Shown: positions 6,410 through 32,342, counted from the stretch's first letter. The stretch is 33,278 nt of DNA from Nitrospira sp. (GCA_029881435.1 JAOUMR010000032.1:1-33278); one strand, 5' to 3'. Notes: generated by a model not told the origin, from the sequence alone. Numbers and translations are program-made.

Positions 6410-7411
6410 ATGGACGCAGAGACCAATCTTCCCAAAGGGGCTATCCTCTCAGGATCAGACGCTGCGTCCCTTCGTCTGGCAGGCCGGATCATCAAGACTG
6501 GAGGGCTTGTGGCATTCCCAACGGAAACAGTCTATGGCCTGGGCTGTGATGCCATGAACCCAGAAGCAGCAGCGAAAGTCTTCGAGGCCAAACAACGTCC
6601 ACAGTTTGATCCGCTCATCGTGCATCTTGCTGATCGAGCGCAACTGGATAACGTTGTCGCATCACAGCCACCAATGGCTCAGACACTCATGGATGAGTTC
6701 TGGCCTGGCCCGCTGACATTGGTCTTACCAAAACAATCGATCGTCCCTGATCTCGTCACAGCCGGTTTATCGACAGTTGCAGTTCGAATGCCGAACCACC
6801 CCATAGCGCAAGCGCTCATCAGAGAAGCAGGCACCCCCATCGCTGCCCCCAGCGCCAATCCGTTCGGCTATGTGAGTCCCACGACTGCGCGCCATGTTTC
6901 CGAGAGTCTTAGAAACAAGGTCGACATCATTCTCGACGGTGGGCCCTGCCAGGTCGGCGTAGAATCAACGATCGTCTCGCTGCTCGGCCCTCAACCACAA
7001 CTATTGCGGCCCGGCAGTATCACACTCGAACAACTCGCTGCCGTGATTGGTCCAGTCTGTTCCCTGCCGCCGAGCTATAATCATCCAATTGCCCCTGGTC
7101 AATTGGCGCGTCATTATGCAACGCTCACTCCCCTGACTATTCTCACCTCTGCCGGGACCAGGCCAGTCTTGAGGCCTAACGAGCGGGCAGGCCTGCTGCT
7201 CATCTCGCAATCGAGAGAAAGCCAAACCTGCTTTGCCGCTGTTGAGGTCTTATCCCCTACAGATGATATCCGAGAGGCAGCACGAAATCTCTTCGCCGCC
7301 CTTCGCAAATTGGACTCTCTTGGTCTTGATCGAATCTATGCGGAACCATGTCGCGAGGTTGGTTTGGGAGTGGCAATCATGGATCGCCTGCGCCGTTGCG
7401 CGGCATATTGA
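6410..7411 (+). CDS. L-threonylcarbamoyladenylate synthase, Sua5 type (YrdC plus Sua5 domain)
   Basis: This enzyme makes threonylcarbamoyl-AMP from threonine, bicarbonate and ATP, the first step of the t6A37 modification of ANN-decoding tRNAs. The YrdC domain fills about the first 200 residues: GGLVAFPTETVYGLGCDA, KQRPQFDPLIVH, FWPGPLTLVL, VAVRMPNH, PIAAPSANPFGYVSPT and VGVESTIVSL. The C-terminal 100+ residues (PGQLARHYATLTPL onward to the GVAIMDRLRRCA end) match the Sua5 extension absent from the short TsaC/YrdC form. The ATG at 6410 gives 333 aa. A TTG at 6383, directly after the cyclophilin stop, would add nine residues; neither has a clear ribosome-binding site. Confidence 0.9.
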   Translation: MDAETNLPKGAILSGSDAASLRLAGRIIKTGGLVAFPTETVYGLGCDAMNPEAAAKVFEAKQRPQFDPLIVHLADRAQLDNVVASQPPMAQTLMDEFWPGPLTLVLPKQSIVPDLVTAGLSTVAVRMPNHPIAQALIREAGTPIAAPSANPFGYVSPTTARHVSESLRNKVDIILDGGPCQVGVESTIVSLLGPQPQLLRPGSITLEQLAAVIGPVCSLPPSYNHPIAPGQLARHYATLTPLTILTSAGTRPVLRPNERAGLLLISQSRESQTCFAAVEVLSPTDDIREAARNLFAALRKLDSLGLDRIYAEPCREVGLGVAIMDRLRRCAAY

Positions 7412-7483
7412 GACCGGAAAACTCTGCGACACTGATTTCGATCGCTCACTGTTTGCGAAGCAGGAGCATGCTCGGCGGACTCC

Positions 7484-8524
7484 TTACTTTCCTCCACCCT
7501 CCAACACCACATGAAATGTCAGATCGGTATCGACTCGACGGACTTTGACTGCAACCTCTTGACCTGGCCTGGTACGCTCGATGAGATAATTTTTCAACTG
7601 AGCACCATCCAGAATCTCCGTGTTCTCAATTGCCAACAAGACATCGTGCTTCTGAATGCCTGCTGTCTTCGCCGGCTCTGCGACCTCCTTGACAGCCACG
7701 CGCACCTTCGTGCCGTCTTTTACCGATGTCATGTGGACACCGAGTCTGGAGAAGGCAAGCGGCGTTCCTGAAAGAGCTGCGTTGACGATGCGCTCCGAGA
7801 GGGTTCCGGGAATAGCAAAGGTCATACGACTACAGTGAGCCTGGTACTCCTCTTTGTCAGTTTGAATAACGGCATGCAGGACCCCCACAACTTCTCCTTG
7901 CATGTTGAACAGCCCACCTCCGGAGTTTCCGCTGCAGGCCGAAAGGTCTGCTTGAATAAGTCGAGTATCGACGGTTTGCAGAAATGTATTGGTATTGCCG
8001 AGCCTCCCAAAGGCCATGGTCGGCCCCCAACCAAGCGGGTAGCCAACTGTGAAAACCTCCATCCCAGGAGAAACTTCCCCCCTGGCAAATGATGTCTCAG
8101 TCTGCAGTTTAGAGCGATGCGGTTCGGCAACTCGATACACCACCACATCCATGAATGAACTCTCACCCACAAGATCGGCGGGAAGTTCGTGAAGATCGTT
8201 TGTGAGCACACGAATCTGTTTCTGAATACTGGTACCAGTCGAAGGCTCGTGTTTCTCTGCGGCATGCCTTGCGGTAATCACATAGCCGTCTCGCAGGTGA
8301 AATCCGGTCCCTCGGACAACAATCTTTCCTGGCCTCTCCGGCGTTCGCTTGTCTTGGGTATCTGCCAGAATTCCCACCGTGACCTGTCTCGCCCGAAGAA
8401 ACGCATCATGGCTGAGCGGCGTGGGTTCGGCTCTGAGCTCGAGGCTGAGCATCATCGTTACAGTCCCTACGACGAATGCCAATAGGCGCACATACCGAGC
8501 CGGTAATGGGGCAAGATCACTCAT
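7484..8524 (-). CDS. Secreted trypsin-like serine protease with C-terminal PDZ domain (Deg/HtrA-like)
   Basis: A 346-aa protein. An N-terminal hydrophobic segment at about residues 11-30 ends LELRAEP, giving a signal peptide or anchor. The chymotrypsin-fold domain carries a complete triad: His87 (ITARHAAE), Asp126 (SFMDVVVY) and Ser201 (SACSGNSGGGLF). The oxyanion segment reads GNSGGG rather than GNSGGP. A single PDZ-like domain follows at about 255-346 (RLGVHMTSVK...GIQKHDVLLAIENTEI). Family members degrade or chaperone misfolded extracytoplasmic proteins. The gene is convergent with the Sua5-type gene and divergent from the SUMF1 gene at 8741. The ATG at 8524 is used. Confidence 0.85.
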   Translation of the reverse strand: MSDLAPLPARYVRLLAFVVGTVTMMLSLELRAEPTPLSHDAFLRARQVTVGILADTQDKRTPERPGKIVVRGTGFHLRDGYVITARHAAEKHEPSTGTSIQKQIRVLTNDLHELPADLVGESSFMDVVVYRVAEPHRSKLQTETSFARGEVSPGMEVFTVGYPLGWGPTMAFGRLGNTNTFLQTVDTRLIQADLSACSGNSGGGLFNMQGEVVGVLHAVIQTDKEEYQAHCSRMTFAIPGTLSERIVNAALSGTPLAFSRLGVHMTSVKDGTKVRVAVKEVAEPAKTAGIQKHDVLLAIENTEILDGAQLKNYLIERTRPGQEVAVKVRRVDTDLTFHVVLEGGGK

Positions 8525-11392: not shown

Positions 11393-12238
11393 CTATTTTA
11401 GCGGGGCATCGGTTGCGCAACGGAACCCTGTGGACTCATTGCGAACCATCGGGTCGCTCTCTACGCGGGTAAAGATACGGACGGTAGGCGTTTCGTTTTG
11501 CCATCCTGCACCACGAATGACCTTCTTTGAACCAGCTGCTGGACCTGTAGGGTTTTTCTCGGGACTCTTCTCATAATACTGGGCGTCATACCAGTCGTTG
11601 ACCCATTCCCAGACGTTGCCGGCCATATCATAGACCCCGTATGGGCTCTTGCCCGCCTCATAACTCCCAACTGGCATGAGGGTCTTCTCCCCAATCCACC
11701 GTTGATTGTAATTGAGATGCTTGGCCGTCGGTTCGACATTCCCCCAAGGGAACCGCCTATCGGACGTCCCTTTGGCAGCCTTTTCCCATTCTGCTTCCGT
11801 CGGCAGTCGTTTCCCCGCCCATTTGCAGTAGGCTTCCGCATCAAACCAATCGACATTGATCACAGGCCGACCGATGAGCGATTCCGTGATGCTGTCCCCT
11901 TGCCACAGATTACGAGTTGGATTGTTTGGATTCTGTGGCACGCGATGCCCCGTAGACTTGACAAAGGCGAGATACAGGCCGTTCGTCACTTCAAACTTGT
12001 CGATCGCAAACGTATCCACCAAGACATCATGACGAGGATATTCATCCCGTCCCCCGTCTCGATCTCCAGAGGGCACACCCATTGGAAACGAGCCGGCTGG
12101 AACCACGATCATCGGGGCGCCGTCCTTCTCGGCTAGAAACTCAACTGGTTCCTGAGATGAACGGTCATCGGCGAACAACATGGATTGACCGAACAGAAGG
12201 CAGCACAGAACCGAGAGAACCACACATCGCACAACCAT
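11393..12238 (-). CDS. Secreted SUMF1/FGE-fold protein 3 (no catalytic cysteines)
   Basis: A 281-aa protein from ATG 12238, which has AAGGAG about 8 bases upstream and leaves a signal peptide (VVLSVLCCLLFGQSMLFA). Landmarks are VVPAGSFPMGVPSGDRDGG, FAIDKFEVTNGLY, VNVDWFDAEAYCKWAGKRLP-type segment, TEAEWEKAAKG, FPWGNVEP, SPYGVYDMAGNVWEWVNDWYD, IRGAGW and TGFRCATD. RGAGW replaces RGGSW and no FGE cysteine pair follows. It is the last gene of the minus-strand copper cluster, 89 bases after the HEAT gene, and converges on the plus-strand SUMF1 operon; each operon therefore carries LolA-like plus SUMF1 members. Confidence 0.85.
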   Translation of the reverse strand: MVVRCVVLSVLCCLLFGQSMLFADDRSSQEPVEFLAEKDGAPMIVVPAGSFPMGVPSGDRDGGRDEYPRHDVLVDTFAIDKFEVTNGLYLAFVKSTGHRVPQNPNNPTRNLWQGDSITESLIGRPVINVDWFDAEAYCKWAGKRLPTEAEWEKAAKGTSDRRFPWGNVEPTAKHLNYNQRWIGEKTLMPVGSYEAGKSPYGVYDMAGNVWEWVNDWYDAQYYEKSPEKNPTGPAAGSKKVIRGAGWQNETPTVRIFTRVESDPMVRNESTGFRCATDAPLK

Positions 12239-16394: not shown

Positions 16395-19300
16395 TTACTT
16401 CATCGCCGTCGGAATAACCTGAGGTTGCTCCTCGGTTTCCGCCTGCTTGGAACCGGCTCCACCAGCACTCAGCGGCTGGAGCCTCTTGTCGCCACTTGGC
16501 AGAACTCGCAGATAGCCCCATTGCCCAGACTGCGAATACGGCAACCGCTGGTTGCTGTATACATAGTCACCAGACATCCGGTAAGGACCTCCGGCCGAAG
16601 GGATAAATACATCGAGAGTTTCAGATCCGGAGAACTCCACGACACTGATCTGGTCCGCGCCACGCATAAATGGCTCGATCGGCCATTCATGTTTTTCGAC
16701 GCCGAACATACCGTTCTGTTCATTGTTAACGCCGATCACATGGATACGCACCGGATCGCCGGCATGTGATTCGATGACAGGTGTTGCCGGATCTTCAGGA
16801 TTGTCCGCCTTGCAGGGCTGGAACATCTTACCGAGCGAACAGCCCTGGTCTTCCCGGTACAAATATGGCTCAGACCGGTAGTTAATACCAGTCAAGCCCG
16901 CGACATTCTGCACGTACGGCATGAAGCTGGTGCCGATGATGTTGTCCTCATCTTGGAAGAATAACGCCACATCGCGATAGTTCGCACGCATTTCGTTTCC
17001 AGAGATAGACCTGTCCACGATCACATCGGCCGCCCAGGCATTCTTGTTCGACAGATCAACACCGGTCTTCGGATCCCGGTACTTTGATCCCTTTGGACCG
17101 ACAACGATCGCACCGAACAAGCCGTTCCTTGGATTCATCATCACATTACCCCAGTCCCAAACGAGTGAGGTCGTCTCACCGTTGAACGGATCGGCATAGT
17201 ACGTGTAGACCCGTTCACCGCCTGGAACGATCGTCTGATCGCCGGGATTGTTTCCGACATTGGCTCCCATTGAATCCTTCGGATCGAATGCGAGCCCAAT
17301 GGCGGAGAATGAAGCCTTACTGTCCTTCATCTTATTCTTCAGCTTAACCTTGACGCAGTCTCCAATGTTCACCCGAAGCGTCAGTGGCATAGGTCGCGAG
17401 TTTCCAGACACTTTTGCCACCTCGTCCTCCAGCGCGTAAATTTTCGCATCTGGATTGGCGACCTGTATCTTTCGCTCAAAATCGACCTCAATGGCTTCCG
17501 GAATCTTCGGGTTAAAGGTCATCGACGGGTAGTCCATCGCCACCACGTTGAAGCTCTTCACCGGAGCATCGGCTGGACACACCGGCAAGGCCTTCGGGAT
17601 CTCTCCCTTATTCGAGAACCCCGCCGGCAATTTCTTCAGATCGCGTTGCTCCTTGTCATAGACCCGCACGATGCCCCATCCACCTTCCGACAACTTCGAT
17701 GACCGCCCATTAAAGTGGATGAAATCACCCGCTTGATGCCGAGGACCACCGGCTTCCGGCACCACCAAGTCATACCGTTCGGCAATGCCTACATGAATTG
17801 AGTTCTTCCGGTTGGCATCGGGCGCGTACCGCTCGGTCCAGAACGTATGGCCTGACAAGGTCCAACTCATTGTCTCGTTCATGAGGGTATGCAACAGCCG
17901 GAACACCATGGTGTCGCCCGTGTATGCCCTCAGAAGCGGCGTATAGGGATCTCCATGGATCTGGCTGTTGAAGATTTGTGACACATCCGGATTCGTCGCC
18001 AAACGCTGGGCGATTGGTCCCGCCCGGAAGTTCAGACCACTTCCGGTAGTGTGTGTTCCGCCGTTCAGGAACGGCATCGGAGTCATATAAATCTTTTCCG
18101 GCATGGCGAAGGACACGGTCTTCCCTGCCTCCAGAGCCACTTCGATCGGTTGACCAGGAGGATTCCCTGCCGTGACGATATTCACGGTATGCGGTACCGT
18201 ATCATGCACCTGAACCATGAGCTCACGGAAGCTGTTATTCACCCCATGCCCCACGGGCTCGTTGGTATGAATATCCGCGATAGGACCACTACGGATTTGT
18301 TTCCCTGTCGTTGGATCATGGTAGGTCGATCCGACCGGTTCGGCAATGAACGTACCGAACCCACCGTGCGGCCAAGTCGTCGCACCGAATGCGTGATCGT
18401 GCCAAAATACGGTCCCCACATCCGCATCCACCCAGAACCGTTGACGAACAAACTCCACCGTGACGATATCCTTGGCAGGGTGATTGTTCTTTAATCCCTT
18501 CGACAGCGTAATCTGATTACCCTTGATGGCCTTGATACGGGCAATCTCGTTACCCTTCACGTTATCGGCGCCGACCAGGATCAATGTTCCAACATGATAC
18601 TGTTTGGCGTTCTTGACCGAGATTGTTTTCGCGCCCTTCTTCGCGGCTGAAGTCAACACAGTGTTCATCGGAGCAGGAAGCCCCTTCGGATTTTTCTTCT
18701 CCAGCATTGTGAACGGACGCACCGACTGTTCATAGGAGAATCCGGTGATCACACCGTCCGATGCCTGGTTATCGAATTGCAGGAAATGCCAATGGGTGTT
18801 GATCTTGGACGCCTGGAAATTCGTGTAGTCGTCATCGTCCCACTCGCTGGTCAATGTCCAATCCACACAATCGTAAATGTTGCCGCGCACGACCAACGGA
18901 TACTTGAGATCATCGTTGGCGCGAATCGCAGCCTCCTCTTCGTGCAACACATAGATCAAGCCGTTCTGATCGATAACCGGAGGCTCCTTACCTTGGGCCT
19001 TCGCAATCTTGATCGGTACCTTGATGAAATGAACGTTGTAGTTCTTCCGCCCGGCATTAGCTGGACAGAGGCTCCAGTTCCCCTGCTCTCCAGGCTTGGC
19101 TTGATCGAGGCTCTCCTCTCCATTGTCGTCCCGACGGATCATCTCTAACCACGGCGCCCCGACGTGATTCGGAGAAAACGCAACGCGCTTCCCGAAATGT
19201 GGTGTGAGATGTGGCCACGCCACCTTCCCTGTCAGCGGCTCGAACATGATTGGGTGCCGCTTGCCAGGATGGGTCGACTTATATTTCGGATTTTCGACAT

Positions 19301-21227
19301 CGCTTTCTCTCTCACTCATGGCACGATTGCCATCCCAAACCCAATCCAACACGGTGGCATCGTAAGAAAGAATCTGGCCTTTCTCATCATCCTTATGGCC
19401 GGGCTTGCCCAGTGGGGGCAACTGCATCGCGACCCAATCCTTGATCGTGATCGTGGCCGGATTTCCCTTCCAGTTGCTCTTCCCCTTCTCGATAATCTTG
19501 AATTTGGTCCCGAACCAATCCACGGTCTGTCCGATCAACTTATCGGATGAGATCGGTTCCTTAATACGACCTTTACGATCCGGCAACTCACGCAGGTCCG
19601 GCATCACATCATTCCGCATGTCGCCCTGCTGGATCGTATTGTACACGCGCCAGTAGCCCCACATGCCGGACACATAGTGATGCGCCACGTGGCAGTGGAA
19701 CAGAAAATCGCCGGCCAGTTGTTGGCAAAGACCTGAGCCGCACTCCGTTTCCAGATCTAAGGCTTCCGATGGGCCGATGACTTCTACGTCGACACGATCC
19801 GTCTTGTGACGGATGACAGGATACTTGACTGGACCGTTCACCGCCGTGGCCCAGAGGGGCATGTCATCGATGGCCCTCGGGCTCCGCGGCCAACGAATCG
19901 ATCCCCCATGCGGATGATGGCTGTGGAACACTTCGGATCCACCGTGGACAAGGCGGAACTTCGCCGGATCCCCGATGTAGGATCGAGGGATAGTCGGAGC
20001 AGCATCCCCGAAGGTATAGGAGCTATACCCCATCGACTCATCCTCAAACCCGAAGTATTCATGCTGTAAATGCATATTGTTGATGCCGAATGGCTCACTG
20101 CGATAATTGATCGCACGGCCACCAGGACGATAGGTATCGGTCAACGGATCGCGTTGGGGCAAGAAATCGCCCTTCTTGTTGAGGGGGCGGAAGGCTTCGT
20201 CGCCGACTTCATGGTAATACAAGACGAACTCCCGGAAGTCAGGACCGGTCCCATTCTTAATCATGACCTGCCAGCCGCTTGTAGCCGGAGTCGCATCTCC
20301 CGTTCCGAGCGGCTCCCAGTATGTTGAGCCGCGAGGCTCCACAACGAAAGAACCAAACATTCCCATGACGGTCAGTTCGCGATCATTGCTATAGGTGTGG
20401 AACTGGCGAACCCCTTCCTGCGTATTGGGATGGATGTACCATTCCAACTCTACAGGCTTGTCTTTGCTGGCGATGGCATCCGAATTCGTCGTGATTGCCG
20501 CAGCACCAGTCTTACTCACAACCGTCGACGAGCCATGGATGTGCAAGCTGACGTCCTCGCCGCCTTCCAATTTGTTGCTCAGCTTGATCTTGACACAGTC
20601 TCCCTGATTCGCACGAAGCGTCAGTGGCTGAATCCACTGCGCTTGCACGCCCGGGATCACGGCCCCTGGATCGAAACCGTCCTTATCGCGTGCTTCACGA
20701 TTCGTTGTTTCTTCGGCTCTAACCTTGTCGATATCCTCATCCAGCACGTACATATATCCGGGATAAAAATCGAGCCACTGGTTGAGCGTGATCTCGACGT
20801 TGATCGCGGAGACATTGTACTGCTTCACCGGCGCAGTCGCAGGACACTTACCGCCTCCGGTCGCAGCCACCGGTTCGACTCGAGGATCGGACATGAGCAA
20901 CATATCCTGCCCGCCGGCTCCGTACTGGTGCATCATGGCCGATGTGTTGTACATGCCGGTGTTGACCGCCTGTACCTGCGGATCCTTGGACATATGGTCC
21001 ATGATTCGCTGGTGTTGCTGCTCGACCATCGCGGACCGTTCGCCTCTTCCTGACATGGCGTCCTCGACGATCGTCTGCCCCTTGAGCTGTTCCGCCCAAG
21101 CCGGCAGCTGATGGTTCATCGCAATATGAGAGGGACTCTCGGCGGTCACCAGTGCCGGCATAGCCAACAACGCCATACCCGCAAGCCCTCTTAGGAGTCT
21201 GGTTGATGGAGAGTGGAAACGATACAT
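16395..21227 (-). CDS. Giant secreted multicopper oxidase 1 (six cupredoxin domains, permuted copper motifs)
   Basis: A 1610-aa protein with a perfect AGGAGG ahead of its ATG and a signal peptide at residues 1-29. A Met/His-rich segment follows (about 60-115). Three homologous two-cupredoxin units start at CPA-type motifs near residues 128, 721 and 1217. Copper motifs: HxxHxH (435, 438, 440) and HCHxxxHxxxGM (511-522) in unit 1; HxH (812, 814) and HxH (943, 945) in unit 2; unit 3 has lost them (SGDYVYSNQRLPYSQSGQWG in place of the type 1 site). Unit 1 also keeps HIHG at 229-232. One type 1 copper and one trinuclear cluster are expected, formed across units 1 and 2. Size recalls MofA of Leptothrix (Mn oxidation); substrate unknown. 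Confidence 0.88.
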   Translation of the reverse strand: MYRFHSPSTRLLRGLAGMALLAMPALVTAESPSHIAMNHQLPAWAEQLKGQTIVEDAMSGRGERSAMVEQQHQRIMDHMSKDPQVQAVNTGMYNTSAMMHQYGAGGQDMLLMSDPRVEPVAATGGGKCPATAPVKQYNVSAINVEITLNQWLDFYPGYMYVLDEDIDKVRAEETTNREARDKDGFDPGAVIPGVQAQWIQPLTLRANQGDCVKIKLSNKLEGGEDVSLHIHGSSTVVSKTGAAAITTNSDAIASKDKPVELEWYIHPNTQEGVRQFHTYSNDRELTVMGMFGSFVVEPRGSTYWEPLGTGDATPATSGWQVMIKNGTGPDFREFVLYYHEVGDEAFRPLNKKGDFLPQRDPLTDTYRPGGRAINYRSEPFGINNMHLQHEYFGFEDESMGYSSYTFGDAAPTIPRSYIGDPAKFRLVHGGSEVFHSHHPHGGSIRWPRSPRAIDDMPLWATAVNGPVKYPVIRHKTDRVDVEVIGPSEALDLETECGSGLCQQLAGDFLFHCHVAHHYVSGMWGYWRVYNTIQQGDMRNDVMPDLRELPDRKGRIKEPISSDKLIGQTVDWFGTKFKIIEKGKSNWKGNPATITIKDWVAMQLPPLGKPGHKDDEKGQILSYDATVLDWVWDGNRAMSERESDVENPKYKSTHPGKRHPIMFEPLTGKVAWPHLTPHFGKRVAFSPNHVGAPWLEMIRRDDNGEESLDQAKPGEQGNWSLCPANAGRKNYNVHFIKVPIKIAKAQGKEPPVIDQNGLIYVLHEEEAAIRANDDLKYPLVVRGNIYDCVDWTLTSEWDDDDYTNFQASKINTHWHFLQFDNQASDGVITGFSYEQSVRPFTMLEKKNPKGLPAPMNTVLTSAAKKGAKTISVKNAKQYHVGTLILVGADNVKGNEIARIKAIKGNQITLSKGLKNNHPAKDIVTVEFVRQRFWVDADVGTVFWHDHAFGATTWPHGGFGTFIAEPVGSTYHDPTTGKQIRSGPIADIHTNEPVGHGVNNSFRELMVQVHDTVPHTVNIVTAGNPPGQPIEVALEAGKTVSFAMPEKIYMTPMPFLNGGTHTTGSGLNFRAGPIAQRLATNPDVSQIFNSQIHGDPYTPLLRAYTGDTMVFRLLHTLMNETMSWTLSGHTFWTERYAPDANRKNSIHVGIAERYDLVVPEAGGPRHQAGDFIHFNGRSSKLSEGGWGIVRVYDKEQRDLKKLPAGFSNKGEIPKALPVCPADAPVKSFNVVAMDYPSMTFNPKIPEAIEVDFERKIQVANPDAKIYALEDEVAKVSGNSRPMPLTLRVNIGDCVKVKLKNKMKDSKASFSAIGLAFDPKDSMGANVGNNPGDQTIVPGGERVYTYYADPFNGETTSLVWDWGNVMMNPRNGLFGAIVVGPKGSKYRDPKTGVDLSNKNAWAADVIVDRSISGNEMRANYRDVALFFQDEDNIIGTSFMPYVQNVAGLTGINYRSEPYLYREDQGCSLGKMFQPCKADNPEDPATPVIESHAGDPVRIHVIGVNNEQNGMFGVEKHEWPIEPFMRGADQISVVEFSGSETLDVFIPSAGGPYRMSGDYVYSNQRLPYSQSGQWGYLRVLPSGDKRLQPLSAGGAGSKQAETEEQPQVIPTAMK

Positions 21228-22464: not shown

Positions 22465-25400
22465 CTATTTCATGGCCGTCGGCATAGCCTGAGGCTGCGG
22501 TGTCTCCTCCGCCCGCTTAGCCCCCACACCGCCCCTACCGAGCGGTTGGATCCGCGTATCACCGACAGGCAACACACGGAGATAGCCCCATTGTCCTGAC
22601 TGCGTGTAGGGCAGTCGTTGATTCGACCAGACGAAGTCTCCCACTTGGCGATAGGGGCCGCCCGCACCGCCGCGTAAGAACACGTCAAGAATTTCAGAGC
22701 CGGCATACTCGACCACGCTGATCATGTCGGCTCCCGGCATGTACGGCTCGATCGGCCACTCATGGCCTTCGACCCCGAACATGCCGTTCTGCTCGCTGTT
22801 GGCGCCGATCACGTGAATCCGAATCGGATCACCGGCATGGGCCTCAATTAACGGCGTCACAGGATCTTCGGGCTTCTCCACGACGCAAGGCTGGAAGATC
22901 TTACTCAGCGAGCAGCCTTGATCCTCGCGGAACAGATAGGGCTCGGCTCGGTAATTGACCGAGGTCAAGCCCGCGACATTTTGCACGTACGGCATGAATG
23001 AGGTCCCAATGATGTTGTCCTCATCCTGGAAGAAGAGGGCCACATCACGATAGTTCCGCTTGCCCACGTTCTCGGGCAGGCTCGCATCCACGATGACGTC
23101 CGCCCGCCAGGCGTTCTTCTGCGAGAGATCCGCACCGGTCACTGGATCCCGGTACTGAGACCCTCGGGGACCGACGATGATCGCTCCATACAGTCCGTTC
23201 CGTGGATTGACGACAATATTACCGCCATCCCACACGAGCGACGTCGTCTCCTTATTGGCCGGATGCGCATAGTAGGTATAGAGGCGGCTTTCGCCGGGCC
23301 CCACGGTCTGATCGCCAGGATTGTTCCCAACATTCAGGCCTTGACTGTCTTTCGGATCGAAGGCCAGACCTGGCGCAAAGAACGACGCCCGGCTCGCCTT
23401 CATCTTGTTCTTCAGATTGACCTTGATGCAGTCGCCAAGGTTGGCCCGCAACGTCAGCGGGTGCGGGGTCTTGCCGCTGGAGACCGTCGTCGCTTCTTCT
23501 TCGAGCGCGAAGATCTTGCCTTCCGGCATGGTCATTTCGATCTTCCGCTCAAAGTCCACCTCGATGGCGTCCGGTGCTTTGGGATTGAGCTTCATGGGCC
23601 GATCGACCGCCACGACGTTGAAGTTCTTCACCGGTGCGTCAGCCGGACAGACCGAACTCAGAGCCGCTGGGATACCGAGCGGATTGGTTCCCTTCGGCAA
23701 CGGCTTGAGATCCGACACTTCCTTGTCGAGCACCCGCACGATCCCCCAGCCACCTTCGGCGAAATGCGAGGTGCGACCGTTAAAGTGGATATAGTCGCCC
23801 GGCATACCCTGAAATCCGCCGGCCTTCGTCACAAGATCGTATCGCTCCGCAATCCCAACGTGGATCGAGTTCTTCCGGTTGGCATCTGCCGCATACCGCT
23901 CAGTCAGGAACGTATGCCCGGAAATCGTCCAGACGTGGGATTCATTCATGAGCTGATGCAACAGACGGAACACCATCGTATCGCCTGTATACGCCCGTAG
24001 CAGAGGCGTATCCGGATCACCATGAATCGCGCTGCTGAACAGTTTCGAGGTGTCCGGATTGTTCGCGAGCCGTTGCGCAAACGGTTCCGCACGGAAGTTG
24101 AACCCGCTGCCGGTCGTATGCGTCCCGCCGTTGAGGTATTGGTTCGGAGCGTTCAAGATTTTTTCCGGCATCTGGAACGACACGGTTTTGCCTGCTTCCA
24201 GCGCGACCTCCACCGGTTGTCCGGGCGGATTTCCCGTCTCGATCACGTTGACCGTGTGCGGCACCGTGTCGTGAATCGAGACCATCAGCTCACGGAAGCT
24301 GCCGCTGACGCCGGCCCCGATCGGCTCATTGCTGTGGATATCAGCAATCGGACCGCTGTAGACCAGCTTGCCGTTCTTCGGATCGTGATAGGTAGACCCA
24401 TACGGTTCCACAATCGTGACGCCGAATCCTCCGTGTGGCCAGGTCGTCGCGCCAAACGCATGGTCATGCCAGAACACCGTCCCCATATCGACATCGACCC
24501 ACCACCGATACCGGACGAACTCTGGCGAGACCAGATCATTGGTTGGGTGATTGTGCTTGAGCGGCTTAAAGAACGTCATCCGATCACCCTTGATCTCCTT
24601 GATCCGGGCGACTTCCTGACAGCTCTTGTCCCGCGGGAGTGATGCCGTGGGATCGTTACCTTTCTGCAGACAATCCATACCTACCATGACCTCGGTGTTC
24701 GCATGAAACTTCGTGGCACCGGGAGCCATCTGGATCTTGATCGAGGTCGCGCCGGCCTTCACTCCGCTCACGAGCTTGGCCACCATCGGCGCGGGTAATC
24801 CATGCTTCGTCTTCTTTCCCCACATCGTGAAGGGGCGAACCGACATCTCGTACTCAAACCCGGAAATGACACCGTCCGAGTTTCCGGTATCGAACTGGAA
24901 AAAATGGGGATGAATATTGATCTTCGACGACTGAAAATTTGTGTAATCGTCGTCATCCCACTCGCTCGTCAGAATGACATCGACGCAGTCATACACGTTG
25001 GCACGAATAACCGCCGGCACTTTGAGGTCATCATCGCCTCTCGTTAACCGCTCTTCCTCGTGCAGGACGTAGATCAACCCGTCCTTGTCGACGATGGGAG
25101 GCTCGTTTCCTTGCTTCTTCGCCAGCGTAATCGGCAGGCGAATAAAGTGAATGTTGTAATGCTTGCGGTTCGCATTCTCCGGGCACAGACTCCAGCGACC
25201 CTGCTCTCCAGGCATGGCCGGCTCGGAGGTCCGCTCGCCCTTGGCGTCCTGGTGAATCGGTTCGAGCCAAGGTGCCCCGTTGTGATTGGCCGAGAACGGG
25301 ACACGTTTTCCGAAGTGTGGTTTAAACAGCGGCCAGGCCATCTTCCCGGTCGTCGGGTCGAACAGGATTGCCGGTCTCGTGCTGTCGTCCCACTTGGCTG

Positions 25401-27393
25401 CCCATGTGTACTTCGGATATTTGGCGGTGCTTTCCCGTTCACCGACCGCCACATTGCCGTTCCACTTCCAATCCCAGACAGTCGCGTCATAGGCCATGAT
25501 CTGACCCTTTTCGTCGTCCGTATGGCCGGGTTTCCCCTGCGCGGGCACGAACATCTCAACCCAATCCTTAATGTTCACGATCACCGGATTCGATTTCCAA
25601 TTCGTCTTTTGGCTCTTGTCCACGATCTTGAAGGTCTTCCCAAACCAATCAACAGTCTTCCCGATCAGCTTGTCGGACGACACGCCCAGTTTCATCCGGC
25701 CAGCGCGATCCGGCAGCTCCCGGAGGTCCGGCATGCTGTCCGTATGGGCCGCTCCAACTTGGAGGGTGTTGTAGAACCGGCCGTAGCCCCACATCCCTGC
25801 GACATAGTGGTGCGCAACGTGACAGTGATAGAGGAATTCGCCAGCCAGATGCTGACAGCCACCGCCGCCACACTCAGGTTCGAGGTCCAACGCCTCGGAC
25901 GGACCGATGACTTCGACGTCCACACGGTCGGATTTCGTTCGGACGACCGGATACTTAACCGGGCCGTCCTGCCCCATCGCCCACATATTGTTGGGCTCGG
26001 TACCAGGACTGCGTTGCCAGCGAATCGATCCGCTATGCGGATGGTGCGAATGGAACACTTCCGACCCACCATGAACGAGTCGCCACTTGACCGGATCGCC
26101 CAGATAACCTCGGGCAATCGTGGTCGGCGTATCGCCGAACGTGTAGGAGCTATAGGCCAATGATTCGTCCTCAAACCCGAAATACTCGTGTTGCAAATGC
26201 ATCTGATCGATGCCGAACGGCTCACTGCGATAATTGATGGCCCGCCCGCCGGGACGATAGGCATCCGTCAGCGGATCGCGCTGGGGCAAGAAATCTCCCT
26301 TCTTGTTCAACGGGCGAAACGCCTCATCCCCGACTTCGTGGTAGAACAACACGAACTCGCGAAAATCGGGTCCCGACGCATTATCGATATTCACCTGCCA
26401 GCCACTCTTGACCTCAGGAGCAGGCCCTCCACTTCCGATCGCATCGAGATACCTGGCGCCTTGCGGCTCCACGATAAAGGCGCCAAAGAGACCCAGGACC
26501 GTCAGTTCACGGTCGTGGCTATACGAGTGGAACTGGCGCACTCCTTCCTGCATGTGCGGATGGAGATACCATTCGAATTCTTGAGCTTTGCCGGGTGCGA
26601 CAATGGAATCAGGATTGGTCGTCGTGGCCGGTTTACCCGTGGGGCTCACGACCATGCTCGACGCTTGGATGAACAGGCTGCCATCTTCTTCTTCCATTTG
26701 ATTGCGCAGCGTCATCTTGACGCAATCGCCCTGGTTCGCCCTGAGGACCAAGGGTTGAATCAGGTCGCCCTGCAGGCCCGTGCTGACGGCGCCAGGATCG
26801 AACCCATCCTTTTCACGAGCCTCCCTGTTCTTGGTCTCTTCAGCCCGAGCTTTCTCCACGTCCTCGGTCAACACGTACATATAGCCTGGATAGAAGTCGA
26901 GCCAGCGATTCAGTGTGATTTCGACATTGATCATCGACACATCGAACTGTTTGGTCGGCACGCCGGCAGGACATCTCCCTCCCGAGGTCAAGACCGGCTC
27001 ACCCTTGCTCGAATCCGTCATGAGGAGGAAACTGCTGCCGTCCTGCCCCATGTACTGGTGCATCATCGACATGTTGTTGAACATGCCCGATGTCTGTTGA
27101 GTTTTGGCATCCTTCTGGGCCTGCTGTTCTAATTTCTGCATCAATCGATGGTGCTGCAGTTCCATTTTTTGGGCCTTGTCGGCGTGGCCCTCGATGGCGT
27201 TCTCCAGCACTGTCTGACCCTTGAGTTGCTGGGTCCATCCCGGCATCGCCACCGGTGTGGCGTGACCTGCCAGAGAAGAATCGTGTGTCTCTGCAGCGAA
27301 CACTGACGCTGCCACAACGCTTCCTGCGATCAGAACAGCGTGCAGCATCAGCAGCCGTCGCCACCAACCCTGTGGTTGAAATAACGATCTCAT
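22465..27393 (-). CDS. Giant secreted multicopper oxidase 2 (paralog of MCO 1)
   Basis: A 1642-aa protein colinear with MCO 1 and clearly its tandem duplicate. GGAGG precedes the ATG; signal peptide residues 1-34 (LIAGSVVAASVFAAE). The same three two-domain units begin near residues 141, 737 and 1249. Copper motifs: HxxHxH at 448, 451, 453; HCH...H...GM at 523-534; HxH at 828/830 (HPH instead of HWH) and 975/977 (WHDHAFG). Unlike MCO 1, the unit-1 HIHG is absent (FIQA at 241-244), and HPHG after the HxxHxH box is HPHS. Extra residues, including a Cys-containing loop (MDCLQKGNDPTASLPRDKSC), lie near 906-925. These differences suggest divergent substrates or partners. Expected to be extracytoplasmic. 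Confidence 0.88.
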   Translation of the reverse strand: MRSLFQPQGWWRRLLMLHAVLIAGSVVAASVFAAETHDSSLAGHATPVAMPGWTQQLKGQTVLENAIEGHADKAQKMELQHHRLMQKLEQQAQKDAKTQQTSGMFNNMSMMHQYMGQDGSSFLLMTDSSKGEPVLTSGGRCPAGVPTKQFDVSMINVEITLNRWLDFYPGYMYVLTEDVEKARAEETKNREAREKDGFDPGAVSTGLQGDLIQPLVLRANQGDCVKMTLRNQMEEEDGSLFIQASSMVVSPTGKPATTTNPDSIVAPGKAQEFEWYLHPHMQEGVRQFHSYSHDRELTVLGLFGAFIVEPQGARYLDAIGSGGPAPEVKSGWQVNIDNASGPDFREFVLFYHEVGDEAFRPLNKKGDFLPQRDPLTDAYRPGGRAINYRSEPFGIDQMHLQHEYFGFEDESLAYSSYTFGDTPTTIARGYLGDPVKWRLVHGGSEVFHSHHPHSGSIRWQRSPGTEPNNMWAMGQDGPVKYPVVRTKSDRVDVEVIGPSEALDLEPECGGGGCQHLAGEFLYHCHVAHHYVAGMWGYGRFYNTLQVGAAHTDSMPDLRELPDRAGRMKLGVSSDKLIGKTVDWFGKTFKIVDKSQKTNWKSNPVIVNIKDWVEMFVPAQGKPGHTDDEKGQIMAYDATVWDWKWNGNVAVGERESTAKYPKYTWAAKWDDSTRPAILFDPTTGKMAWPLFKPHFGKRVPFSANHNGAPWLEPIHQDAKGERTSEPAMPGEQGRWSLCPENANRKHYNIHFIRLPITLAKKQGNEPPIVDKDGLIYVLHEEERLTRGDDDLKVPAVIRANVYDCVDVILTSEWDDDDYTNFQSSKINIHPHFFQFDTGNSDGVISGFEYEMSVRPFTMWGKKTKHGLPAPMVAKLVSGVKAGATSIKIQMAPGATKFHANTEVMVGMDCLQKGNDPTASLPRDKSCQEVARIKEIKGDRMTFFKPLKHNHPTNDLVSPEFVRYRWWVDVDMGTVFWHDHAFGATTWPHGGFGVTIVEPYGSTYHDPKNGKLVYSGPIADIHSNEPIGAGVSGSFRELMVSIHDTVPHTVNVIETGNPPGQPVEVALEAGKTVSFQMPEKILNAPNQYLNGGTHTTGSGFNFRAEPFAQRLANNPDTSKLFSSAIHGDPDTPLLRAYTGDTMVFRLLHQLMNESHVWTISGHTFLTERYAADANRKNSIHVGIAERYDLVTKAGGFQGMPGDYIHFNGRTSHFAEGGWGIVRVLDKEVSDLKPLPKGTNPLGIPAALSSVCPADAPVKNFNVVAVDRPMKLNPKAPDAIEVDFERKIEMTMPEGKIFALEEEATTVSSGKTPHPLTLRANLGDCIKVNLKNKMKASRASFFAPGLAFDPKDSQGLNVGNNPGDQTVGPGESRLYTYYAHPANKETTSLVWDGGNIVVNPRNGLYGAIIVGPRGSQYRDPVTGADLSQKNAWRADVIVDASLPENVGKRNYRDVALFFQDEDNIIGTSFMPYVQNVAGLTSVNYRAEPYLFREDQGCSLSKIFQPCVVEKPEDPVTPLIEAHAGDPIRIHVIGANSEQNGMFGVEGHEWPIEPYMPGADMISVVEYAGSEILDVFLRGGAGGPYRQVGDFVWSNQRLPYTQSGQWGYLRVLPVGDTRIQPLGRGGVGAKRAEETPQPQAMPTAMK

Positions 27394-29635: not shown

Positions 29636-29857
29636 TTACCCCTTCAGTCCTCGCAGCCCCTTGCTGGGGGAGACCGGGGCGATGAAATTAGCAATCGACC
29701 TGGGGTCCCAATCTTTCGCATTGAGAAACGCTCCTACCGCTGATGCCCCCCGGAGGACAGGCTCTCCGGCGCTCCCACTGACCTCTCGGTTTCCTTCTTG
29801 ACGATCAACAATCAAAGACTCCCGGCCCTTTGCTTGCACGTAGAACACAGAATTCAC
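29636..29857 (-). CDS. Small protein of unknown function (73 aa)
   Basis: Begins at GTG 29857 with a strong GGAGG nine bases upstream, which is the main support. The sequence (NSVFYVQAKGRESLIVDRQEG, VLRGASAVGAFLNAKDWDPRSIANFIAP) has a soluble alpha/beta look and no signal peptide, cysteines or transmembrane segment. I recognise no family. It lies 39 bases after the Cys-rich peptide gene on the same strand and is probably the last gene of the PatA/PatG-like operon. Confidence 0.5.
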   Translation of the reverse strand: MNSVFYVQAKGRESLIVDRQEGNREVSGSAGEPVLRGASAVGAFLNAKDWDPRSIANFIAPVSPSKGLRGLKG

Positions 29858-29896
29858 GCTCCTATTCCTCCAAAAATACCGTTTCCCACGCTTCGT

Positions 29897-30265
29897 TTAC
29901 CCACTCACCAAGGAGAAGACCCTGTCATCATGACATTGGACTACATCGTTTACTAAATGGCATTCCGCTGGCCATGGATGCTTAGACGCGCACCCCCATA
30001 TCGCTTCAGCCCAATGCCGCTCAGTGCAACCATGACACCCATTAGCATCGCACGATTTACAGCAACCACGGAAAGGAACTACCGGAGCAGCAAAACCCAA
30101 ATCTGGCGTTGGAAATTCTGGACGTCGTCGAGGAGGTAGAAATTCTTCACGTCGTTGAGGAGGTAGAAATTGTTGAGATGCCTTAACACCAAAATTGTTT
30201 TCGGAATTTGTTTTGTTGCCTGACATCCCCCGATTTACGCCATTTGTTAGTTTTGGAATTTTCAC
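29897..30265 (-). CDS. Repeat- and cysteine-rich small protein, candidate precursor peptide
   Basis: A 122-aa protein from GTG 30265 with GGGAGG nine bases upstream. The first 32 residues are Asn/Lys/Ser-rich and could be a leader. Then come near-identical 9-residue repeats FLPPQRREE (33-41) and FLPPRRRPE (42-50), plus a degenerate third beginning FPTPDLG. Residues 68-111 hold eight cysteines (68, 69, 72, 77, 80, 92, 102, 111), beginning GCCKSCDANGCHGC. There is no signal peptide. Directly downstream of a PatA/PatG-like protease, it resembles a ribosomal precursor with repeated core segments, but cyanobactin recognition motifs are absent. A metal-binding accessory protein is the main alternative. 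Local sequence is AT-richer than the neighbours, hinting at transfer. Confidence 0.65.
   Translation of the reverse strand: MKIPKLTNGVNRGMSGNKTNSENNFGVKASQQFLPPQRREEFLPPRRRPEFPTPDLGFAAPVVPFRGCCKSCDANGCHGCTERHWAEAIWGCASKHPWPAECHLVNDVVQCHDDRVFSLVSG
30116..30169. repeat. Tandem 27-nt repeats inside the candidate precursor gene
   Basis: Units 30143-30169 and 30116-30142 are both 27 bases, in frame, and differ at a few positions; they encode FLPPQRREE and FLPPRRRPE. A third, diverged unit follows at 30089-30115. Perfectly in-frame duplication of a short coding unit is typical of multi-core peptide genes and of structural repeats. Confidence 0.85.
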
Positions 30266-30338
30266 CTTTGGGATCCTCCCATTTTGGAATTTTTTAAAAC
30301 CTTTCCACGATTTTACTTAACTTTTTCAAAGAACATAC

Positions 30339-32342
30339 TTATCGGACGGACCATGATCGCACAGGTCCAACCATAACAGGTACAACATCGCTCACATCAA
30401 CACAGCATCGATACACCTTTCTGGCCTGCACAAATACTTGCTTGGGGTTAAAGCATGTCAGTTTCACATCCCAGCAATCGGAGCCTGGCCGGCCGATCGG
30501 ACTCCGTTCCACTTCAATGCTGTCAAGCTCCATGTCCTCCTTCATCGCGGCTTTAAAAACCTCCATCACTTGATAGGCATTCGTGGCCGCATAGTTCACC
30601 GCCCGGTGCTGTGGCGTCACACCGAGATTCCGGAGCTCCTCATACACGCGGCGGAGAAAGTTGGTGATGGCTTGTGCTTTCACGCCGTATTCATCTTTCT
30701 CCTTTTGCGGCGTTTTATCTTGAGGAGGAGTCCCACAAATGGTGTGCACGAGCGCCGAGGTATTCCAACTATACATCCCACGCAAAACCGGCAAAATGAT
30801 CGGCACGACCTGCCCGGTATATAGCCTCGCACTTCCAGCGATATACCCTGGAATGGAGACGCGCTCGACTTCACCCTTGGCCTGATCGCCAAGAAATTCA
30901 CACAGCCGTTGACAGATCTGGCTTGCAAATCCTCCCTGAGCTTGGATGGCATAGATGGGCGTAGCATCCAAACTGAGGGTCCAAAGAACTGCTGCTGCGT
31001 CCCAGTAGTTGTCCCTCAGATAGTCCAGAAACTGGACAGGGTCATGGGGATTGGCCGGCTGCTTCATATGCTGCATGATGGAGTCACGGCGCGCTTCGGT
31101 TCCAAAGTCATAACCCAGCTGCCCAAGAGCGAACACAAGTTGCTTGGGAGCGGTGCCGCCACATTCGCATGCGGCAGCTTGAATGTGGCTGGGACTCACA
31201 GCCCCCTGCGCCGCGAGGACTTCTTTCCTTGGCGCACTCATGCTGCTTCCTGATGGCTGTGTTTCCATCGCAGGGTCTGTGGTCCCACCGTCGAAAGACG
31301 CTGCCTGCACGTGTGCTGGCGGCGGCTGGGATGCGGGGGCTTTCAACGCAGAACGTGCGTCATCCTCAACCAGGGTGTTTCCGTTTTCTCTTGCTTCATT
31401 GGATTCGGTCATAGCATGTATTCCTCCTGTTATGTGCAACATCGCCCCGTTCACATGAAGACGCCCAGCTAGGAGTCGCCGACAATTAGATACTGGCTGC
31501 TCATCACATCCTATGGCGCTCGTCAAGATTGCCGCACGTACAGCAGAGGCGTCAGGTTCTTGTCCAAGCTTGAGCTGAAGACTCAACAGAAGCGCCGCGA
31601 CGCCGGAGACGACAGGTGTCGCATAGCTGGTGCCACTATTCGTCATAGTGCTGTCGTCAGGTCCGGCTCCTACAATGTTTTCCCCAAGGGCCAAGACACC
31701 TTGGGTTTGATAGTGTGTGCCCCAGTTACTGAAGCCCATCGGCTGGCCCTGAGCATTCATCGCCCCAACTGCCAATACCGATGGCAACGCACCTGGAATA
31801 TGCAGGCACTCGCAACCTTCGTTCCCCGCTGCGGCCACGATGAGAACGCCACGGTTCGCACAATCCTTGATCGCATCAGCGAGTAGAGGGTGAGCCGTGC
31901 CGGAGGGGGTAAGCTCACCACCGCTGATGTTGACAATATGCGCGCCCGCTTGAACAGCTTGACCAATCGCTCGTGCCAGGTCGACCTGTGAACAAGGAGC
32001 AATAGAGCCGGCATCCCCATCTTTGAAAACCGGAATAACCAAGCCCCGGCAATGAGACGCGATACCCTTAATCGGGCTATCATGCTGTCCAAAGATGACA
32101 CTGGCGATATGGGTACCGTGCTGTGAGGCTGGGCCATGATCTGCTTCTCCCGAAACAAGCGTCTCAATTCGAGTAAGATCAGCGCGAGCAAGGCTCGTAT
32201 GCGACTCGTCAACTGGGCCATCGAGAATCGCAATGCAAATTCTGGAATCACCTAACGTCTCACTCCAGAGTTCTTGGAGTCCGGGAATTTCTCCGTTCGC
32301 GATTGATGACCGCTGAACAGGCTTGCTCACAACTGACTGCAC
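30339..32342 (-). CDS. Subtilisin (S8) protease of the PatA/PatG cyanobactin-maturation type
   Basis: A 667-aa protein from GTG 32342 (GAGGAG nine bases upstream), without signal peptide, so cytoplasmic. The subtilase domain (about 20-300) has the full triad: Asp41 (AILDGPVD), His75 (QHGTHIAS), Ser239 (NSGTSYATP), with oxyanion Asn174 (AAGNEG). A linker carries two related motifs, HVQAASFDGG (344-) and HIQAAACECGG (386-). The C-terminal 270 residues begin PKQLVFALGQLGYDFGTEARRD, a signature of PatA/PatG-family proteins. In cyanobactin pathways PatA cuts the leader and PatG cleaves and macrocyclises the core. No YcaO-type heterocyclase or oxidase is visible here. The gene overlaps the preceding receiver fragment and is followed by the candidate precursor. 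Confidence 0.8.
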   Translation of the reverse strand: MQSVVSKPVQRSSIANGEIPGLQELWSETLGDSRICIAILDGPVDESHTSLARADLTRIETLVSGEADHGPASQHGTHIASVIFGQHDSPIKGIASHCRGLVIPVFKDGDAGSIAPCSQVDLARAIGQAVQAGAHIVNISGGELTPSGTAHPLLADAIKDCANRGVLIVAAAGNEGCECLHIPGALPSVLAVGAMNAQGQPMGFSNWGTHYQTQGVLALGENIVGAGPDDSTMTNSGTSYATPVVSGVAALLLSLQLKLGQEPDASAVRAAILTSAIGCDEQPVSNCRRLLAGRLHVNGAMLHITGGIHAMTESNEARENGNTLVEDDARSALKAPASQPPPAHVQAASFDGGTTDPAMETQPSGSSMSAPRKEVLAAQGAVSPSHIQAAACECGGTAPKQLVFALGQLGYDFGTEARRDSIMQHMKQPANPHDPVQFLDYLRDNYWDAAAVLWTLSLDATPIYAIQAQGGFASQICQRLCEFLGDQAKGEVERVSIPGYIAGSARLYTGQVVPIILPVLRGMYSWNTSALVHTICGTPPQDKTPQKEKDEYGVKAQAITNFLRRVYEELRNLGVTPQHRAVNYAATNAYQVMEVFKAAMKEDMELDSIEVERSPIGRPGSDCWDVKLTCFNPKQVFVQARKVYRCCVDVSDVVPVMVGPVRSWSVR

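Follow-up and report, generated by a model that had tools for sequence, protein, structure and literature searches.

A PatA-type protease and an adjacent leader-bearing, cysteine-rich peptide in Nitrospira: a putative maturation unit related to cyanobactin processing

The stretch of DNA analysed here (hereafter the window, 33,278 nucleotides of a Nitrospira sp., GCA_029881435.1 JAOUMR010000032.1:1-33278) carries, one behind the other, a gene for a PatA-type S8 protease with C-terminal PatG domains (30339..32342; 667 residues, GTG start) and a small gene for a candidate precursor peptide (29897..30265; 122 residues, GTG start). Both genes and all the features assigned to them below lie on the minus strand, with 73 bases between the protease stop and the peptide start codon. 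It is highly probable that they form a two-gene maturation unit, in which the protease is paired with a leader-bearing peptide encoded at its side.

The protease matches the PatA/PatG family TIGR03895 over its full length (711 bits, cut-off 421), and its peptidase S8 domain (residues 34-280, 31503..32243; PF00082, E 1e-29, supported by invariant columns) carries the triad D41, H75 and S239 and N174, none of which varies in an alignment across 16 relatives. The two parts of the cyanobactin domain of unknown function (DUF) follow: PatG_D (residues 403-500, 30843..31136; PF18047, E 6e-13), opened from about residue 403 by the signature FALGQLGYDFGTEARRD, and PatG_C (residues 553-664, 30351..30686; PF18065, E 1e-40). 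The protease had indeed been recognised as an S8 enzyme with a complete triad and a PatA/PatG identity when the sequence was read by itself, and the family match bears this out. Among structures of the PDB, the protease domain is closest in sequence to PagA (4h6w, E 1e-101) and PatA (3zxy, E 1e-86), with the PatG macrocyclase 4aks a far weaker match (E 1e-50), and residues 397-666 match the PatG-DUF 4uvq (E 9e-54). Foldseek, run with a predicted model of mean predicted local distance difference test score (pLDDT) 73, ranks 4h6w and 3zxy first, in the same order. Because PagA and PatA outrank the macrocyclase in both comparisons, the protease is, as judged from its sequence and predicted model, PatA-like and not a macrocyclase.

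The small gene is preceded by a ribosome-binding site, GGGAGG (30275..30280), nine bases upstream of its start, and encodes eight cysteines, every one beyond residue 66, as the sequence-only reading had pointed out. Its product begins with the conserved leader MKIPKLTNGVNR (30230..30265), recognised from relatives and from the published motif as P-x4-[PG]V-x-R; this spacing equals that of cyanobactin precursors, whose leader motif is KKNxxPxxxxPVxR (PMC3428304), with GVNR in place of PVxR and the KKN missing. Residues 26-30, GVKAS (30176..30190), are the predicted cleavage signal, assigned from relatives and from the PatA consensus, as PatA cleaves after G(L/V)E(A/P)S (PMC10885120), and a cut is expected after S30. 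The predicted released tail (residues 31-122, 29900..30175) would hold all eight cysteines; it contains CCxxC and CxxC motifs and several histidines, and ends in ...DDRVFSLVSG, with no C-terminal recognition sequence of the AYDG/FAGD type. The predicted product starts with two 9-residue repeats, QQFLPPQRR EEFLPPRRR (30122..30175), which are real also at the DNA level (a 27-base direct repeat in two copies with 78% identity, PEFPTPDLG being a weak third copy). Cleavage at the boundaries of these repeats, as had been suggested, was rejected, since they lie downstream of the conserved site and are absent from relatives; they are probably part of the tail.

Both motifs recur in relatives. The sample comprised 21 loci with a stand-alone protease, i.e., three from Nitrospira, ten from Planctomycetota, four from cyanobacterial plasmids (plasmids, not chromosomes) and four from Streptomyces plasmids, and a leader-bearing small gene was found 3' of the protease in all 21. 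The sequence-only reading had held that homologous proteases regularly lacking such a neighbour would speak against the pairing; no such protease occurred among these loci. The consensus of 22 small open reading frames (ORFs) 3' of related proteases is MRLPxQSxGVxR, a variable stretch, and GVxPS, and several relatives have an exact PVxR or PIxR in their leaders. Of 23 peptides, 16 show the pattern P-x4-[PGAS][VIML]-x-R (mean 0.28 and maximum 4 after shuffling) and 10 show G[VIL]x[PA][SQ] (mean 0.39 and at most 4 in 2000 shuffles). Nineteen carry the site in a looser form, which begins at residues 22-29 in 18 of them. Cysteines are distributed accordingly in the 23 peptides, with 5 among 690 positions within the first 30 residues and 132 among 1156 beyond. 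When the 1594 start codons of the window were ranked with a leader profile free of any Nitrospira sequence, the peptide start came first (16.2 vs. 9.5 for the runner-up). In the whole genome of the window's host the peptide was the sole significant leader match (E 2e-6, the next 0.46), the alignment used for whole-genome searches including the window peptide, and across 13 whole genomes and four plasmids almost every leader match under E 0.01 was close to a protease, apart from one orphan in G673:C168 whose ORF reads MKLPVLARPIDRS...TIQPA and has a Cys-rich tail. The Acaryochloris 'Moss Beach' locus and the four Streptomyces plasmid loci were examined only after the motif had been fixed: the former has the leader LLPKQLKPIKR (12.5 vs. 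3.9 for the next position), and the latter have leaders of the type LQMPQQxPPVDR and the sites GVEA, GVEAS, GLEA and GIEPS, of which GVEAS corresponds exactly and GIEPS nearly so to the PatA consensus.

Beyond their leaders the relatives' peptides are mutually unrelated. Most tails are Cys-rich, the Streptomyces ones are short and amphipathic or two-Cys (for example NFLPLLGALGSLLF and DFLPLLPIVASAAGGLLGKLFG), and two from Planctomycetota are phospholipase-A2-like (PF00068, E 7e-5 and 3e-4, neither of them reaching the gathering score); the latter (L036 from 9913 onward in G768, and L037, G727:C18:98810-98896, minus strand) read WCGxxN...DAVCxxHDLC and then proline-rich repeats.

The protease itself carries a similar motif. 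Between its S8 and PatG domains lies a linker of about 90 residues (308-399 being disordered in the predicted model, pLDDT <50), in which GAVSPS (residues 380-385, 31188..31205) is similar to the peptides' cleavage motif and is followed by a Cys-x-Cys (C392 and C394, 31161..31169) invariant in 13 Nitrospira and Planctomycetota proteases. The succession of (V/I)(S/T)PS and CxC is found in most stand-alone proteases, so that the linker resembles the peptides' own site with cysteines behind it; the A and G proteins of a Gloeothece cyanobactin cluster keep VTPS but miss the equivalents of C392 and C394. On this resemblance, the protease may cut itself at the linker motif or have a pseudosubstrate there, either being plausible in view of PDB entry 3zxx, titled 'Structure of self-cleaved protease domain of PatA'.

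Two enzymes typical of cyanobactin synthesis were looked for in the window's genome and not found. YcaO (PF02624) had no match in the window's genome, which is 99.85% complete, in agreement with the earlier description of the locus as YcaO-free, and is absent from all three protease-bearing Nitrospira genomes and from 10 of the 13 genomes overall. As for a PatG-type macrocyclase, the only TIGR03895 match over the cut-off in the window's genome is the PatA-like protease. A further 73-residue ORF (29636-29857), previously listed as part of the locus, has no family match and no tie to the system.

Taken together, the two motifs common to cyanobactin precursors and the co-occurrence in 21/21 loci support the adjacent peptide as substrate, as already supposed, and we hold this assignment, drawn from sequence comparison, with considerable confidence; the cut probably falls after GVKAS. 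According to the mechanism that we propose, the PatA-type protease would recognise the small protein encoded beside it through the N-terminal leader MKIPKLTNGVNR, would cut once, after residues 26-30, and would thereby free the 92-residue Cys-rich tail as the active product, whose cysteines would probably pair as disulfides or bind metal. With YcaO, macrocyclase and C-terminal signal all missing, the product is expected to be linear, and that it is linear and otherwise unmodified is on balance slightly favoured. From the amphipathic or phospholipase-like tails of relatives, we guess at an exported product with other cells or membranes as its target.

Several observations weigh against this two-gene reading. 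The window leader is not the cleanest of its kind, KL standing in for xQ and G for P, and in its site the E is replaced by K. Motifs of the looseness of GVKAS turn up in 2% of shuffles of the window peptide, and the codon-position GC of the peptide gene (0.59, 0.50, 0.33) is not clearly coding-like. Hidden Markov models of cyanobactin precursors (TIGR03678/TIGR04446) give no match to the window peptide and barely touch three relatives (13.7 to 14.1 bits, below the cut-off). Among the relatives, the peptide adjacent to the protease in G673 is degenerate and without the leader Arg, and the tails of G296 and G210a have no cysteine. No transporter is annotated by the Streptomyces loci, no systematic search for transport having been made. 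Finally, the leader is not necessarily read by the DUF, because the isolated PatG DUF showed no binding of PatE by nuclear magnetic resonance (PMC4259220); for the same reason the DUF as leader reader, attractive from its co-occurrence with leader peptides, is kept only as a question.

The protease could alternatively be the last step of a fuller pathway, its tails being modified by enzymes encoded elsewhere, such as a B12-dependent radical S-adenosylmethionine (SAM) methyltransferase. In one relative only (G199), the 5 kb upstream of the protease hold two such ORFs, a radical SAM C-methyltransferase of TIGR03975, a family of ribosomal-peptide maturation (715 bits vs. a cut-off of 282), and another radical SAM ORF of the B12 type; with the TIGR03975 gene just upstream, further modification of the tail is possible in some hosts. 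A TIGR03975 gene is also present, on another contig, in the window's genome and in G210, and in both the contig stops just upstream of the protease, so that neighbours could be missing. We nonetheless consider a fuller pathway unlikely: 9 of the 13 genomes have no TIGR03975 match over the cut-off, a leader peptide was not found beside the gene in the window's genome, and the radical SAM pair of G199 has a candidate substrate of its own upstream (11576-12130). The accidental vicinity of an unrelated Cys-rich metal-binding protein is a very improbable explanation; the CCxxC, CxxC and several His of the tail and the large multicopper oxidases on the same contig would suit it, but leader and site are common to relatives whose tails are unrelated, the pair co-occurs in 21/21 loci, and the window peptide has no Pfam or NCBIfam metalloprotein match.

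Another alternative is a zymogen-like effector system, where small toxins or enzymes would be kept inactive by the leader and set free by the protease, possibly after its own self-cleavage at the linker, for example under competition or stress. The phospholipase-A2-like tails of two Planctomycetota, the short amphipathic tails of Streptomyces and the peptide-like site in the protease linker all favour such an arrangement, which we still judge improbable, as neither an immunity gene nor a trigger was identified, several loci carry several different tails in the manner of natural-product arrays, and a search of defence families with PADLOC returned generic subtilase matches only. A defence system was rejected on this last result.

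The pairing of a PatA-type protease with a leader-bearing precursor is not unique to the window locus and constitutes a sparse, widely spread family. Its occurrence outside cyanobacteria, noted earlier for this locus, extends to Nitrospirota, Planctomycetota and Streptomyces plasmids; within the genus Nitrospira the protease is found in 3 of 79 genomes. The three Nitrospira proteases form one clade, sister to a Planctomycetota protein (97/94) and nested amid Planctomycetota and cyanobacterial sequences, a topology that fits horizontal spread; no relative was found in viral contigs. The Streptomyces plasmid proteases (545 bits on TIGR03895 in L088) have about four to seven small leader-bearing ORFs behind each, forming arrays of similar leaders (L088-L091), several of them unannotated and with a BTAD-type regulator close in every case. 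Four peptides stand in series in G199. In G210 (L010 2084-3232), decaying tandem repeats with a unit length of about 500 bases join the terminal 144 bases of the protease gene to the ribosome-binding site and the leader. Three copies of the protease 3' end are thus present (90% and 67% identity), and duplication can place the leader onto new tails, by which new precursors can arise. In a Nostoc locus that has the DUF and lacks the S8 domain, we could find no leader peptide; on a Nostoc cf. commune plasmid (L021 5944-7320), the region of the catalytic Ser is deleted and the remainder joined to the DUF, with an intact leader peptide behind.

Regarding the gene neighbourhood, Pfam searches on 83 and 68 neighbouring ORFs revealed no common family among the top 25 listed other than WD40 by four Planctomycetota loci (L038, L041, L042, L043), where large WD40-repeat proteins adjoin the peptide gene. 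In G199, the two B12-type radical SAM ORFs overlap (L012, G199:C13, 12148-13905 and 13745-15868, one of them TIGR03975), and a Gly/Pro/Trp-rich protein of 184 residues (L012 11576-12130) may be their substrate. Just upstream of the protease, at the contig end (32327-33277, minus strand), the window itself has a receiver-domain response-regulator fragment and a LuxR-type regulator. It also encodes two multicopper-oxidase-like proteins of 1610 and 1642 residues (16395-21227 and 22465-27393, both on the minus strand), distant relatives of the manganese oxidiser MnxG (NF041487, 130 and 107 bits, cut-off 3100), for which a role in metal oxidation in Nitrospira is possible.

The system shares with the cyanobactin pathway (patellamide, prenylagaramide, piricyclamide) a PatA-type protease with a C-terminal DUF, the P-x4-PVxR leader spacing (PMC3428304), a site of the G(L/V)E(A/P)S type (PMC10885120) and arrays of small precursors with constant leader and variable core. 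It differs in that the Nitrospira system has no PatG macrocyclase, C-terminal recognition sequence or YcaO in the genome, in that the tails of stand-alone systems are long and Cys-rich, amphipathic or enzyme-like, and in its presence in three phyla besides Cyanobacteriota. With linear cyanobactins (aeruginosamide, viridisamide) it has in common a predicted linear product and proteins combining protease and DUF, but their clusters include a heterocyclase and a methyl- or prenyltransferase (PMC5460452), none of which was seen here. NisP and AmyP, which remove the leaders of lanthipeptides, are likewise S8 subtilases with a short motif as their cleavage site (PMC10885120), yet belong to another protease family with another leader, and no lanthipeptide synthetase was seen in the window. 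In a true cyanobactin cluster of Gloeothece, the precursor has GVTPS ahead of a Cys-rich core. The leader also opens Gloeothece PatB (L020 12559-12774; the cluster also includes 7315-7560 on the minus strand), as MRLPKLAPPVKR; PatB may thus itself be a leader peptide or derive from one.

A ribosomally synthesized and post-translationally modified peptide is defined by a leader and a core, of which the core is modified and the leader removed; here, a conserved leader and a variable core were found in adjacent small genes. Because YcaO, the G-type macrocyclase and the AYDG/FAGD end are all missing, the system is not a cyanobactin by membership but a new variant of cyanobactin-type maturation, in which the protease step should work as in cyanobactins. 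The checked stand-alone members of TIGR03895 have the linker CxC and no cyanobactin cluster around them, and for these the family name, 'cyanobactin maturation protease', overstates the pathway. No NCBIfam or Pfam family names the peptides, and our literature search, with many cyanobactin papers outside its reach, found no report of them. As the pair recurs in four bacterial phyla without the usual modification enzymes, an unnamed, stripped-down maturation system is likely.

These findings separate the cyanobactin leader protease from cyanobactin chemistry. More tentatively, and with the chances in our view slightly against it, there could be a cross-phylum, YcaO-free 'PatA-only' class. A single leader and a single G(V/I/L)x(P/A)(S/Q) site would serve unrelated products in it (amphipathic peptides, disulfide-rich peptides and phospholipase-A2-like proteins), its protease would bear a CxC linker resembling its own substrates, and cyanobactins would be one elaborated branch. 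Such a class, if true, would explain why the P-x4-PVxR leader and the PatA/PatG DUF are conserved despite no chemistry having been assigned to the DUF, whose role is an open question (PMC4259220), and systems with just protease, DUF, leader and site offer the simplest setting for testing it. The combination of leader and site downstream of a stand-alone TIGR03895 protein also provides a search rule for peptides now 'hypothetical' or unannotated, one that reaches the amphipathic peptide arrays of Streptomyces plasmids, and the protease offers a short, portable recognition sequence.
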